Assembly: GCA_019973155.2 (NCBI GenBank)
Contig: BPQB01000026.1
Location: forward strand, 315,001 to 379,000
Length of the DNA: 64,000 nt
Direction of reading: 5' to 3'
Source of the DNA: Phanerochaete sordida
Lineage: Eukaryota; Basidiomycota; Agaricomycetes; Polyporales; Phanerochaetaceae
The number at the start of each line of letters is the position of its first letter. Positions within the stretch are counted from its first letter, which is position 1. Under the pieces are notes generated by a model. The model did not search any database. It was given only the letters and a program-made list of their open reading frames with translations, and had not been told where the DNA came from. Shown one piece after another: positions 8,073 through 32,665 of this stretch. The position numbers and the translations under genes were made by a program.

Positions 8073-9302
8073 TGTGCGAGTGGATAGGAGTGAGGTGAGA
8101 TGTGGATGCTGCTGACCTCCCTGTGTCACGCTGAGCTTTATAGGCTCTGCATGAACGCTGTGAGCCCACAGGCAACCCGCACGGCCTAGCAGTGTCCCTG
8201 AATGACGAAGCCAAGTAAGACGGAGGCGGAATGCAATGTGGGCCAAGAGAGCGCCGACGCCCGCCTCGAGGCCGGGGTCAGTCTGAAGAGACTACGCGTC
8301 GCTCGGCTCTGGACGGCAGCGGCTCTCATTATGACAGTGCTATGGGCCGAGTCGGAATGTCACAGGCCTGTGTAAAGCTTGCGCAGGCTTGCTGGGGTGC
8401 CCTCACCCGACTCTATCGGCCGTCAATACTTCAAGCTTCAAGCTTCACGCTGAGTCGATAGGCTTTCAGTGCGGCCTCTCAGCGATACTCACTGTGGGTT
8501 CACGAGTCAGGCGACCATATTTAACGTAAAGCGACTGTAAATTACCTCGTGCCCTTCGCGTCCTTCAAACTTTGTTCTGGGTTTAAGTCCAGCGAACGAG
8601 AGCAGCCACTGTTGCGATCTCATGTCGTCCACGTCGCTGACAGCGGGGAGACGCAATATTCCAGACTTTTGGTAAGCCAGCAAGCCGGCGAATTGTAACT
8701 TATGTCATGCAAAGGGATTGTGTGGAGAACAGAGGTGGATGTGGATGAGAGCTGGAGCCTGGGACGAAGACCCACAGTAGCGTCCGCGTCCACGTGATCG
8801 ACGGCGTGTGTGCTAATAAGCGCGGGTTCGGGAGCAATTGCGACGCTTTCGCTTCTAACTCTTTGCTGCCACCGGGTCGCGCGAGCTTGACCTTGTCTAC
8901 TGTCGCAGTGCGTTACGTACTCTACATAGTTCCCACTAGCTCGTTGATTCTACCATGACGCGTGCACATCAATATGGGAACTAGGCTACTTATCAGCGAA
9001 ATCAAGTTTACAGAAGAAACTGTCTCTCTTGAACAGCTCTGTCGCTCTGGGATATCTCGTCACAAGATAATACTACGTATGTTTCTGTGGTCTTTTTATC
9101 TAGCCTTTTGCTTCCTGCTGACATTCTGCGGTTGTATAGTTCGTGAACGATTGTCGATGTCGCGAGTAATAATATATGTTCATGGGGCGACGCCTTCGCG
9201 TGCACCACGACGCAATTCGCCATACCATCTGTTTATCACACGCTCGGAAGGCTCTGCATTGTAGGACGCTCCAACTGAGCCGGAGAATTAGGCCGAATTG
9301 CT
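8073..9302. other. Intergenic region
   Basis: About 1.2 kb containing the promoter of SDR copy B and otherwise AT-richer DNA. There is a short CTTCAAG tandem near 8429-8448. No gene was recognised on either strand. Confidence 0.45.
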
Positions 9303-26670: not shown

Positions 26671-26819
26671 GGCGTGCGCCTAGTCTTGCGCGGTCGCTCG
26701 TGAAGTAAAGGAGAAAAAAGAGACGAAAATAAAAGAAAAAGGCTCCCTGGATGAAGGAGGGAGAGGGTGCGAATGAAGGCTGGGCATGGCGTGTGCGTGG
26801 TAGATATAGTCTCCCAGAG

Positions 26820-26846
26820 GCAGACGCTTACGGAGTAAGCGTCTGC
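26820..26846. repeat. Perfect 12-bp inverted repeat with a 3-nt loop
   Basis: GCAGACGCTTAC (26820-26831), GGA, GTAAGCGTCTGC (26835-26846). Its right arm overlaps the left copy of the direct repeat that borders the transposon-like unit (26839-26856). Confidence 0.9.
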
Positions 26847-26856
26847 AACCAGGACT
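26839..26856 (+). repeat. Left flanking direct repeat of the helicase/DUF6589 unit
   Basis: GCGTCTGCAACCAGGACT directly precedes the left inverted repeat. Its partner at 32637-32653 directly follows the right inverted repeat and differs by one substitution and one missing G. Confidence 0.6.
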
Positions 26857-27046
26857 GGGGGTCCTTGCAGGTGTGTCCGCCATCAAAAAAAAGCCGCTCG
26901 GCAACGATCACGTGCAGGTCCCCGCGCTTTGTTTATTACTCGTCGTCTCGCGTTCTCCTCATCTGTCCTCCATGTCTGCTAGATAATAGCACACTTTTTT
27001 TCGCGTCTTTTGCCTGTCCTCGTCATGAAAAGTCAGACCCCTACAA

Positions 27047-29357
27047 ATGGCTCCCATTCCGCAGCAAGACAGCACCGAATCCGACTGGCACACCCGGTTC
27101 AAGTACGACTGGCAAACAAGTGCCGGTCATGCTCGCCTCAGGGAGCTCGCGGAGCCGCGACTTTCCTTCTCTCTTGGAGACTTTCAAGTTAAAAACACAT
27201 GCCGCCTTCTCATGGGTCAAGACGTGGTGTTGGTTAGTGCGACTGGGGACGGAAAGACCGCGTTAGCGTATGTATACGCCATGGCGCGGCCAGACACGAT
27301 TACAGTCGTGGTATCCCCGACAAACGCTCTCGAGAGCGATATGGTGAGTAGCATGTATTCTTGCTCCGTGGCGTCGCTTATACCGTGCGGCGTAGGTCAA
27401 AAACTTTGAGAAGCTTGGTATCAGTGCCGTGGCTCTCAATAGCGAGAGCCTTACCAGAGCCGACCTGGCCCAGCCTCCGCGGGATCTCTGGCGAGAGATC
27501 AACGACAGGAAGCATCAGGCCATCTTCATTTCACCAGAACTTCTTGGCGACAGCCGTTTCCGCGCCTTCCTCCAGAACAAGGATGTTCGGCCCTGGCTCG
27601 CTCTCCTCGTTATAGACGAGGCGCACCTGGTTGACGAATGGGGGAAAGACTTTCGAGAGGCATACCGGCGCATCAAGGACGCTAGGCCGTGGTTCCCAGA
27701 GTGGACGACCGCGCTCGCTCTGACAGCGACGTTGGAGCCTGGCGCCCAGACCGACCGGGTCGTCGAGGCCATCGGCTTCCGCACAGGCTTCCACCTCGAA
27801 AGACGCGATTGTGCGCGATACAACGTCGATATCGTGCTCCGTCGCATAGAACATTCGTACACAACAAGCGAATTTCGGGATCTCGACTGGCTCATCCCCG
27901 CCGATACCTTCCAAGCCGCCGACATCGAGAAGACCCTTCTGTACTGCGAGACGATCGATTTAGGCCATCGAGTGGCGCGCTATCTTCGCACTCTGCTCCC
28001 GCCGTCCCTGTCAGGAAGCGGGAAGTACAAGGTCATCCGGCACATGCACTCCATGAACTGCCCATCGTGCAAGGAAGAGGGACTTGCATCGCTCTATCAG
28101 ACGGGTGACGAGCGCGAGACAGGCATTCACGTCACGACGGACGTTCTTGGCACTGGGATGAACATGGCGGACTTTGACCGAGTCATCTGCTTGCTGACAC
28201 CGTCGAGTGCAGCCGCGGCTATTCAACGCATTGGCCGAACGTCTCGCGGGAGGGACCGCCATGGTACGGCGTATATTTACCTCAAAAAATCGGACGTCGA
28301 AGCGGTCGAAGTCTGGCTCCATCAAACCAAGCTCGACGATATGGACCCTCGTCTGCTGCGCACCCCGGCCCTACCTTCTGTGTTACAGAGCGATGCAGCG
28401 AAGACAATGACGGCCAAATCTGGATATGCTTCGCGCAGTTCCAAGAATTCTTCCCAGCTCTGCCCGTCCCTGCGCCTCATCATTGCAGCTCATGTCCTGG
28501 GAGCGTGCATTTCCCGCCAGATCAACATCATCTATCAGAACCCGAACACAACTGTCAATTGCGGACGATGTAGCTCATGCGTCCCACGCTCCGTCCCACT
28601 TCCCCGCCCACTCCCCGCTCCTCTCTCTCCTTGTAACCCTACGTCTCCCATGCAAGCCAGTGCTCCTCATCCAAATTCTTCGTCGATAGCCGCTGCTGCA
28701 GACGACCCCAAGGTCTTTGCCTGGCAGAAGCTCACTGCCAAAGATATCGCCGAATTCAGCACGAAGCTCGAGTGCGCCGCTTACCGCGTTCGACGCCGAT
28801 CTCCACGCACACCCGACTTCATATGTGTCGGCTACAAGAGCTTCTTGTCACAGCCTTTCATTCAACTTATCCTTGCCGACTTCCACCTTGTCGCCACCAA
28901 GGAGGTACTGCACGAGCGCATGAAAGACTGGCCGTATTGGGAGACTGCCGGTAACGCGCTTTGGGATGAAGTCGATGCCTTGCGGACTGAGGCGCGAACC
29001 ATGCTCGAGGCGCGGCATGCAGAGAAGCTGGAGAAGGACAGGGAAAAGCGTGCAGAGGACAAGGTTCGTGGCAAAGCTCTAGCTGAAGCTGGTCTCGACA
29101 ATGTCAAGCGCGTACGCTTGATCGTCCGCTCACCTCCGCGGACTTCTTCGGCTGGAGCCAAAGAGAACGAGGTCCAGCAGGCAGTACTCATGGCCGACGA
29201 CGAAGAGATTCGATGCGCTCACACCGCTCTAAGCCCGCCTTCGACGCCGCGGAAGAAACGGAAAGCTTCGACGGTACCGGATTCCCCAGCCGCACGCCCA
29301 GCCAAAGTGACAAGAACATTGCGTCCACGGAAGAGGGTCGATAGTAATGAGTCATAG
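27047..29357 (+). CDS. RecQ-like DEAH helicase of the mushroom-expanded type, 752 aa
   Basis: Two exons, 27047-27343 and 27396-29357 (52-nt intron). Helicase motif I is ATGDGKT (about 66-71), motif II DEAH (173-176), motif III TAT, and motif VI QRIGRTSRGR (from about 376); HVTTDVLGTGMNM is the motif V region. A Cys pair (CGRCSSC) after the core recalls the RecQ zinc subdomain, and the C-terminus is basic (TPRKKRKAS, TLRPRKR), suggesting nuclear localisation and DNA binding. This is a 3'-5' DNA helicase of the RecQ superfamily, not the cellular Sgs1/BLM gene: it lacks HRDC and long N-terminal parts. Convergent with the DUF6589-like gene. A role in mobility of the unit is inference. No frameshift or internal stop is visible, so it may be functional. 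Confidence 0.88.
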
Positions 29358-29434
29358 CTGCGTAATGGTGAGTCTATGCAGCTGTATATCATCTGAAAGT
29401 ATCTAATTGTCATCTCTGGCCTCTCTGCGCCTCT

Positions 29435-32400
29435 CTAGACCTCCTCATCCTCGTCACCTTCGTCATCCGACCCCGAATCATCCTCATCCTGCACAAGTCG
29501 CCCATCGAGCCACATGTTTGGCATGGGGGGAGCTGCTGCTTCGTCGTCGTCGTTCACATCGCCCTCCGCGGTTTCTGTACCAGTGCCGTCCTCCATTTCG
29601 ACATCATTACCACCGTCATGTACATGCACACTATCCAGGGCTGTTCGTGTTGTGAAGTCCCGTAGCCGTGTTGTGCGTGCGAAGATTCGATAACCGTTCT
29701 CGAAGTCGTCCTGAGCTAGAGGTGATAAGGATCTCCCCTGTCGAAAGCGGTGCAGCTCGCGCTCTCGCATGAGTGCGGAAACTCGCCGCATCGCAACCAT
29801 CTTCTTCTTGCGCTTGTGCGAACCGCTTCTGCTGGACAATCCTAAGGTGTCACGGAGGGAATCTTTGACATCTAGGAGGTAGCGAATATTATACGAGATG
29901 ATGTTCTTGAAATGTGCGCTTCCGAAAGGCGCAGCGCGGTCATTCGTGAGCTTCTTCAGCTGACGGTTGCCATGCTCCTGCAGCAGATCGAGAGGGAACC
30001 AGCAGCCATCGTAGCCTGTCAAGTTGCATAGCCAGTGATCCAGTACGACAGCGGCAAGCTCATCGCTGAACTCGTACTCGAAGCTGCAGATGAGCTCCAG
30101 TAGTTCATTGGTGTATTTACTGCGCCCTGATCCGCAGAACGTGAACACCCATATCTAGAGCACCAGATTGAAGGCAGATTGATATGAATATGAGAGTCTG
30201 GTCCACACGAACCTGCCGAAGCTACGAAAATCACGTACGCCGATTATATTCATCACACGCCCAATATCTCCGTCTGCGACCGCGCTCTGGAACTCGAAAT
30301 GAAGTATGCAATCGCGCATCCGCAGAATCGTATTGGCGAGTACGTGGTCACCGCTCGGTGCAGAAGATGGGTCGTCTAGCGGCTTCGGCCAGTCAGAGCC
30401 GACCGGGAAATAACCATCCTCGTTCTCGCCGTTGAGCGCGATCTCGTAGCCTTCTGTAGACATGTATTTTGCGACAATTTCTGATGCGTGCTTCAGCAGA
30501 TCGTCGACGGAAGGCACGGATCGGGAGCTGAAGTATGCTTGAAGATCGTCTGCCTTGAGATGCTCCCTGCCAATGAACGCAAAAATATGTCAGCAGGCAT
30601 TGCGCGAGAGTAACGGCGATTGAAGCGCACCTCCAGCAGCTCACAACATCAGAACGCAGCGTGTCAAACACGAGAGCCTGCGCTGGGTAGAAATCCGGCC
30701 GTTTGACGTTCTTGACGTTCCGGCCGAGATGTTCGTTCATGAACGCCAGGGTCGATATGTCGGTGATATCGGTACCCCAGTGAGTCGAGAGTATCCGCTC
30801 GAGATCAGACCAGCCCATGTGCCATAGCTGAATGATGGGCAGAACCCACTCGTATGCGTCATACCCGTGCGGACAGTGCGCCAGTAGACGCTTCAGGGTA
30901 CGGACCTTCTCGACCGTTGCTTGGTCGCCACCGATGAGCATCAGCAGCTCGGACGCCTTCTCCTTGGTAAGCCCGAGCTGGCCCAGGACAATGTCATTGA
31001 GGACATCCCGATTGCCCTGTGCACTGTTCTCTTCATGTGACGATGTTCCAAGCGGCAAAACAGTTGTACGGCGGCCCTTCTTCATTCGGCGTATCGCAAG
31101 TGTGGTTCGGAGGCGGGTGTTGAGCTCGTCCTGTAGATGTGCGATCTGCGCTACCTCTTGAACGAGGAAGATTGCTGTGTGAGCAGCTGAGATGTCGAGC
31201 ACGCGCTGCCAGTCGACTCGAGTGCGCAAGCGTTCGAGATCGAGCTTCTCGCGATGCCTTTCCTCTTTTGCTCGGCGAAGGGCCTCTAAGTCGAACGCCT
31301 TGATAGGGTCTTCGCAGGCGTCCAGGATGATCAGCGTGGCGGCCGTTCCGCTGTCCATGGTACCCTTCTGGCCAAGGTCGGGGTCCCAGACGCGCCGCAT
31401 GCGGTTGATGTTGTCGTATACCACCATGACCGCACGCGCAGCAGCGTAGTGCTGAACGGTCTTCTTTGCAGAGTCCGTGAGATCTTGCAGAACGTGGAGC
31501 GTGGTCGTGTACGCGGCAGAGAGTCCGAGCCGGCAGAGTATGGCAAAGATCTCGACTGCAGCGCCGTTCGCGAAGAGCCAGACGCCAATGAGCTTCTGGA
31601 ACGCTGTAAACTGCAGGTTTCGCGCGTTCAGCAGCATGAGGAGCGATACGACGATGATCTATAGTGCATACCAGTGAGCTAAGAATGCCTGAATAGATAC
31701 CGGGGATATGACACTTACAGCCCACGGATTGCGTCGGTTCTTGCCTTTCCCGGCTGGTGCAGGTCCGCGAATATTCTCCTCAGGCCCTACACCTTCTTCA
31801 GCAGCCGCCTGAGCCGGCCCATGTGGCGGAGAACCAGGCGGAGGGGGTGGCATAGCGGTGGGCACCGCGCGAGCTGCGGGCTGCTCAGTGCGTTCTTGCG
31901 GCTTGTGTACTGGGATTGCGATGCTTGACAACATGCGAACGGTCGTGGGTGCTGTGTCCTTGATGACGGTGAGCATGGAGTCCAGGGAGAAGCTCCGCAC
32001 TGTGTCCCATGTCAGGCTTTCCAAAAGTCGCAATCCGCCACGCTTGTCAACAAGCTGCCGAGCTTCGCGGTCAACTCTGCTTGCCACGACGTCTACAGCC
32101 CACTCCCAAATCTTCTGCTGAGCCATTTTCGAAGCCGGGGTGAGATGGTTGGCACGGGGATGCGAGTCCTTGTGCCTGTAGAGCAAGTCTACGAACTTCT
32201 CTGCTTTGGCGTTGGACCGGCCCCCGAGAAAGCTTGAGATGACCTGCGCGTGATTCTTGGACCTCCGCGCAGTTCCAGAGCCAGGGTTTCCGAACGCATC
32301 CATGAGAAAGTCGCCAAACGACGCGTACTTTGCTTTCTTGATGGCCTTGAGAACCTGGTCGACGCGTGTCTCCGTGACCGCGAAGGGTTCATCTGGAGGT

Positions 32401-32492
32401 TCATCTGGGTCGGGCGGGGCAGGCAGAGGTGACTGGAAGGAAGCACTAGTAACATTGCGAAATTGGTCGCGGAAGTTCAGCTGGCCGTACAT
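29435..32492 (-). CDS. DUF6589-like protein, 949 aa
   Basis: Minus-strand exons 31719-32492, 30631-31658, 30239-30566, 29435-30154; introns 60, 64 and 84 nt. An N-terminal region with FGDFLMDAFG is followed by a Pro-rich spacer. A large core then includes LLMLIGGDQATVEKV (Asp near residue 503), LWHMGWSDLERILSTHWG, and later CNLTGYDGCWFPLDLLQEH. This order matches, as I remember it, the DUF6589 family that is greatly expanded in Agaricomycetes and of unknown function. The conserved GGDQ and the LWH..HWG histidines could belong to a nuclease/transposase-type active site, but that is speculation. The C-terminus is very acidic (DEDDSGSDDEGDEDEE). The reading frame is intact. I chose ATG 32492 because conserved sequence begins soon after it. 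Confidence 0.8.
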
Positions 32493-32636
32493 GTCGCGTA
32501 GAGCGTGCAGGATGAGCTGCGTTCACGCTGCACTTCACGCGTCGCCGCAGGCGCTTCTGCACACAGCTCCCGGACACAGGTACTACCAAATATAGGAATT
32601 CACCCCTCCAAATCGGGAACACCTGCAAGACCCCCC

Positions 32637-32653
32637 GCGTCTGAAACCAGACT
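32637..32653 (+). repeat. Right flanking direct repeat of the helicase/DUF6589 unit
   Basis: GCGTCTGAAACCAGACT, same orientation as 26839-26856. A further 11-bp direct match GGTAGATATAG occurs at 32655-32665 and 26799-26809. Confidence 0.6.
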
Positions 32654-32665
32654 AGGTAGATATAG

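Follow-up and report, generated by a model that had tools for sequence, protein, structure and literature searches.

We describe here a 5848-bp element in the genome of the mushroom Phanerochaete sordida, lying within a stretch of 64,000 nucleotides (contig BPQB01000026.1, positions 315,001 to 379,000; this whole stretch is called the window below). The element is very probably a DNA transposon with two genes, intact in structure, and the described group to which it comes closest is AcademH. Its termini are shared with insertions elsewhere in the genome, 8-10-bp target duplications accompany them, its convergent pair of genes (a RecQ-like helicase on the plus strand and a four-exon DUF6589 gene on the minus strand) recurs, and internally deleted relatives occur. 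An initial annotation of this DNA proposed that the two genes move together, DUF6589 being the candidate transposase and the helicase its partner; the shared ends, the target duplications and the predicted fold of DUF6589 support this, while the part given to the helicase, that of an accessory, is suggested by its constant company with DUF6589.

Genes and ends of the element

The features of the element, in window coordinates, are as follows.

26799..26806, no strand: left target site duplication (GGTAGATA), read in the sequence
26807..32654, no strand: whole transposon, 5848 bp, TAGTCT...AGACTA, from the C116 copy and end alignment
26807..26812, plus: left terminal inverted repeat TAGTCT, from end alignment
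26820..26846, no strand: perfect palindrome of 12 bp around a 3-nt loop, close to the left end, from DNA folding of the outer 120 nt (z -3.4)
26857..26879, plus: subterminal inverted repeat, left copy, GGGGGTC motif, from repeat comparison
27047..27343, plus: RecQ-like helicase exon 1, from Pfam and gene model
27396..29357, plus: RecQ-like helicase exon 2 (DEAD, Helicase_C; recQ_fam), from Pfam, NCBIfam and gene model
29435..30154, minus: putative DUF6589 transposase exon 4 (E727), from Pfam and gene model
30239..30566, minus: putative DUF6589 transposase exon 3, from Pfam and gene model
30631..31658, minus: putative DUF6589 transposase exon 2 (D340 and D503), from Pfam and gene model
31719..32492, minus: putative DUF6589 transposase exon 1, from gene model
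32614..32636, minus: subterminal inverted repeat, right copy, GGGGGGTC motif, from repeat comparison
32649..32654, minus: right terminal inverted repeat AGACTA, from end alignment
32655..32662, no strand: right target site duplication (GGTAGATA), read in the sequence

Both genes are intact, as first described. The DUF6589 model (four exons, 949 amino acids) is 100% identical to the deposited PsYK624_086170 and equal to it in length, and the two-exon helicase model gives 752 amino acids versus 691 in the deposited model. The helicase matches DEAD and Helicase_C in Pfam, its best NCBIfam model is recQ_fam (E 3e-31, 108 bits versus a cut-off of 220), and the solved structures closest to it by sequence are BLM and RECQ5. 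When the four DUF6589 frames were compared with Pfam to E 0.1, three matched PF20231 only and one matched nothing. Pfam annotates DUF6589 as being of unknown function, and a literature search for the word DUF6589, which a link made under other wording would escape, found no paper. Modelling of the protein, suggested along with the initial annotation, predicts an RNase H fold with conserved D, D and E residues; the best match of the predicted fold is hAT (Hermes), with a helical insertion preceding the putative catalytic E.

A protein search with DUF6589 listed 120 of 145 matches; PF20231 is the only listed domain in each of the 120, with no helicase or XPG fusion among them and no animal DUF6589 among those with a name. 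We take the named relatives among the matches listed to be Agaricomycetes, about half being unnamed. The Mycena belliarum homologues of DUF6589 and RecQ (P0011 and P0039) both lie on contigs of 358097 bp, probably a single contig, which fits DUF6589/RecQ pairing in another mushroom.

The ends of the element lie further out than originally drawn. The inverted repeat that had been taken for its ends is real, matching at 83% over 23 bp (26857-26879 and 32614-32636), and is subterminal, the true ends being at 26807 and 32654. These were defined by aligning copies: in the 40.8-Mb genome the left end of the window element found one further match, a 176-bp copy on contig C116 that contains both ends of the window element, with AGTTGTGG on either side. 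Because homology with this copy passes outward beyond the boundaries first proposed, the 17-18-bp direct repeats at 26839-26856 and 32637-32653, read earlier as target duplications, must be internal; they are present in the sequence, and the duplication is the 8-bp GGTAGATA. A third copy of the family is divided between contigs C12 and C64, and its outer flanks have GTTTGGGC in common. In this copy TA is part of the element, and the duplication is therefore 8 bp long; a 12-bp duplication, our initial reading from two copies, was ruled out by it. All three insertions of the window's family (window, C116, C12/C64) have 8-bp duplications.

The divided copy (C12 near 91-95 kb, locus L027, and the start of C64, locus L033) seems to be a single element cut across contigs, probably by an assembly error: L033 holds the helicase exon-2 residues to about 405, L027 holds the remainder together with DUF6589, and the flanking 8-mer is common to both. 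At the right end of L027 and the left end of L033, a C-run at positions 20 and 72 replaces the G-run that the window element has near its ends, as if the motif had been inverted. Thirteen of the 26 ends examined, among which are several close copies, have the G4+TC motif, versus 3.3% of control segments; the motif is common, not universal. An isolated copy, 32 bp long, of the left end of the window element (L047, 170-201; C20:80069-80100), with no matching right end within the 10 kb read, is likely a remnant.

Copies elsewhere in the genome

Searches of the genome with the helicase and DUF6589 showed that convergent pairs recur. PF20231 matches lie at ten places (C37, C30, C20, C12, C189, C26, C152, C9, C2, C213), seven of which have a convergent RecQ partner (C26, C12, C189, C152, C9, C2, C37); both ends and a duplication were likewise found at seven (C26, C12 with C64, C189, C2, C20, C37, C9). 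At C152 (L029), a locus that begins at the contig edge, alignment gave the right end only, and the C20 locus is without a convergent RecQ partner. C30 (L049) also begins at a contig edge, with no RecQ in the 5 kb read and no ends seen, and at C213 (L032) no element ends were found. In L032 DUF6589 and RecQ are divergent, and the beginning of contig C30 overlaps this locus over 129 bp (92%); C213 and C30 are rearranged or misassembled.

Both genes are also present in the C37 copy, a second such element with a length of 6987 bp. The C20a copy has DUF6589 and lacks the helicase, and the C1, C20b and C27 copies retain a portion of the helicase together with the beginning of the DUF6589 gene. Additional copies came from two more searches by end sequence, and seven of these were read at both ends. 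The insertions then number 18: the duplication is 9 bp long in 14, 8 bp in three, each from the window's family, and 10 bp in one (C2). Most of the 18 have the terminus TAGTCT; other left termini are TAGGTT in C2, TGATCT in the full C9 copy and TAGGCT in C189. Joined flanks of ten insertions (window, C116 and eight others), searched as empty sites in the same genome, matched only the two halves of each insertion.

Among the remaining loci, the ends of L030 were missed in the first scans and recovered by alignment with L029, and scanning of L034 and L037 gave no ends with matching termini. L035 has a lone end at 8628 (TAGGCTCGCTTCCAGCCTCTA) resembling the C189 right end, and the RecQ gene there is not enclosed. 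On C9, a small family D copy (C9:421073-422348) and a full element belonging to a different family (C9:425916-432361) are separated by about 3.6 kb, which may mark an insertion hot spot.

Could these be two adjacent host genes that happen to lie between chance repeats? Both kinds of gene have many mushroom relatives, and repeats of this sort can arise by chance at single loci. Requiring TA..TA ends, an inverted match of at least 5/6 (4/6 for L031) and an exact 8-10-bp duplication, we obtained such ends in none of 200 dinucleotide shuffles of the window stretch. The same scan of shuffled sister loci gave positives among 200 shuffles for L028 (1), L031 (5), L036 (5), L038 (7), L048 (5), L039 (1) and L047 (1); for a single sister locus the finding of ends alone is not overwhelming and could mislead. 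A looser scan was positive in 7 of the 211 overlapping windows it covered, every positive having 5/6 ends with a 9/10 duplication, and a stricter control demanding TAGT/TAGG..CTA was positive in none of 150 drawn segments (120 overlapping window draws plus 30 repeats, from three segments taken ten times each). Eighteen insertions with related termini, mostly TAGTCT, do not look like chance, and the case for an element holds because the TAGTCT/TAGGCT sequence is shared and recurs. With convergent pairing at seven of ten DUF6589 loci in addition, the host-gene explanation is scarcely credible.

Predicted folding of the ends

Some of the ends can fold into hairpins. DNA folding of the terminal 120 nt was computed for 18 ends from nine elements. 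Eight had a z of -3 or lower, including the left end of the window element (-3.4); ten scored higher, for example -0.3 at the right end of the window element, +2.2 at the left end of C189, and 0.1 and -1.2 at the two ends of C116. Hairpins near the ends also occur in families A, C and E. In family D (the C37 type), 15 distinct ends of 19 found were tested; three identical ones were dropped, as was L062, whose inner part differs, yet which matches the later family D model at E 3e-11. Here z was about -4 or below in 12 of 15 ends versus 2 of 360 random window 102-mers, and the lowest-energy fold of 12 of the 15 is one basal stem enclosing two hairpins, with differing arm sequences; that of the C17 left, C2b right and C33 ends is not. 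Chimeras with swapped halves, made from ends less than 85% identical, had a mean of -20.2 versus -26.6 kcal/mol for the parents, and 5.4% of 186 chimeras reached or exceeded the stability of the parental mean.

In a model-fitted alignment both sides had changed in 16 of 33 pairs, and the covariation score was 0.223 versus 0.116 in shuffles (0/500 as high; slid maximum 0.130), with 25 further pair types versus 27.4 in shuffles, lower than most of these. Without fitting, the score was 0.164 versus 0.113 (0/500; slid maximum 0.134), and the 12 of 33 doubly changed pairs are not unusual (135 of 500 shuffles have as many or more). A MAFFT-based consensus fold was weak (both-side changes in 4 of 18 pairs). 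Ends within a family are related, which lowers the number of independent changes below the count of cells. The family D covariance model detects ends of family E, with E values from 5e-5 to 5e-3, and, at E 0.05, no end of the window, C116, C189, C2, C9, C12 or C64.

Two accounts may be considered. The palindromes may contribute nothing to transposition and owe their persistence to template-switch repair, in which one arm is rewritten from the other. This has somewhat less than an even chance of being right: such repair would also produce paired changes, ten of 18 ends do not reach z -3, and the family D model misses the seven sets of ends just listed, whereas a basal stem and two hairpins are shared by 12 of 15 family D ends despite their differing arms, paired changes exceed those in shuffles, and families A, C and E have hairpins near their ends too. 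A more tentative idea, which we consider possible and rather unlikely, is that a hairpin or three-armed junction just inside TAGTCTCG is kept by paired changes, that it is opened or extruded by the RecQ-like helicase which the element encodes, and that a DDE transposase acts on the melted or cruciform ends. A structural role is a hypothesis, because the ends are related and arm-copying repair could yield paired changes, and for the window's family it is based on one left-end hairpin. Searches of the literature on folded Academ ends turned up nothing among the papers listed. The ends of parvoviruses are T-shaped, and a transposon with folding ends would resemble these in form. If true, this would make these elements DDE transposons in which one step depends on structure and is assisted by the helicase, and folding ends that matter would help explain the recruitment of RecQ to eukaryotic DNA transposons.

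Proposed mechanism

Based on the predicted fold and the known chemistry of DDE transposases, we can present a rough proposal for movement of the element. DUF6589, as a DDE transposase with an RNase H fold, would bind the subterminal repeats, the G-run inverted repeat being the obvious candidate site, and would cut at TAGTCT/AGACTA. The ends would be joined to a target whose two strands are cut with an 8-bp stagger (8-10 bp in sister families), and gap filling would then produce the target duplication. The RecQ-like helicase could act as an accessory that melts or remodels the ends, or the gaps remaining after joining. Copies without the helicase, or without most of the transposase gene, share these ends, and their movement was probably in trans. 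DUF6589, an orphan Pfam family well represented in mushroom genomes, would gain a testable transposase function with conserved catalytic residues to mutate, and the defined ends, duplications and small non-autonomous copies provide material for a transposition assay.

Comparison with known transposons

Helitrons are not known to have target duplications or inverted termini, and their helicase is of the PIF1 type. A rolling-circle element of that kind, with the hairpins as terminators, would account for a helicase and for hairpins near some ends, but we give it almost no weight: the elements here have inverted termini and, at many insertions, exact target duplications, comparison of six frames with Pfam gave no match to a Rep/HUH family, and the helicase is RecQ-like. 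Kolobok duplications are TTAA, which was found at none of the 18 insertions. Statements below on published groups refer to excerpts of the papers cited. KolobokH, found only from fungi, is like the present elements in being a fungal DNA transposon with a RecQ helicase (PMC9587614).

DUF6589 resembles DDE/RNase H-fold transposases in its predicted fold and conserved D, D and E. hAT (Hermes) is the best match of the predicted fold and likewise has a helical insertion before the catalytic E; the 8-bp duplications usual in hAT (PMC12730594) are also those of the window's family. The helicase, the 9- and 10-bp duplications of sister families and the lack of a Pfam hAT match in the DUF6589 frames set the present elements apart. 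KDZ/Zisupton elements share 8-bp duplications with the window's family (PMC12730594), as well as mushroom hosts; the translated DUF6589 frames have no Pfam KDZ match.

AcademH, a lineage of Academ, was reportedly described by Kojima in 2020 (in Mob DNA 11:15). The view that the element is unlike any known kind was overstated, because this helicase-encoding group of DNA transposons from animals and fungi had already been published that year (PMC10045372). According to the same paper, from 2023, AcademH makes 9- or 10-bp and AcademX 3- or 4-bp duplications, which it relates to helicase and nuclease (PMC10045372). In a 2019 survey, 81% of fungal Academ copies have recognizable protein domains, for example PF00270 and recQ_fam (PMC6416283), and AcademH is low-copy in Basidiomycota, Ascomycota and Mucoromycota (PMC10799480). 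The present group is likewise a fungal DNA transposon encoding a helicase besides a putative transposase, with recQ_fam named for fungal Academ, and taken more widely in this genome it has 9- or 10-bp duplications in 15 of 18 insertions. What counts against the assignment is that the window's own family makes 8-bp duplications (3/3); folded ends, moreover, are absent from the excerpted descriptions of AcademH (PMC10045372, PMC10799480, PMC6416283). These 8-bp duplications would suit a separate superfamily, in which DUF6589 and Academ transposases belong to different lineages, a RecQ helicase having been recruited in each. RecQ has been recruited more than once, KolobokH encoding one too (PMC9587614), and neither the Pfam entry nor the literature search by name ties DUF6589 to a function, but we regard such a superfamily as improbable given how well the helicase and the 9-10-bp duplications fit the reports on AcademH and fungal Academ. 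Because of this helicase content and these duplication lengths, the DUF6589/RecQ group, likened by description, is most likely AcademH, and the window's family most likely a variant of it with 8-bp duplications.
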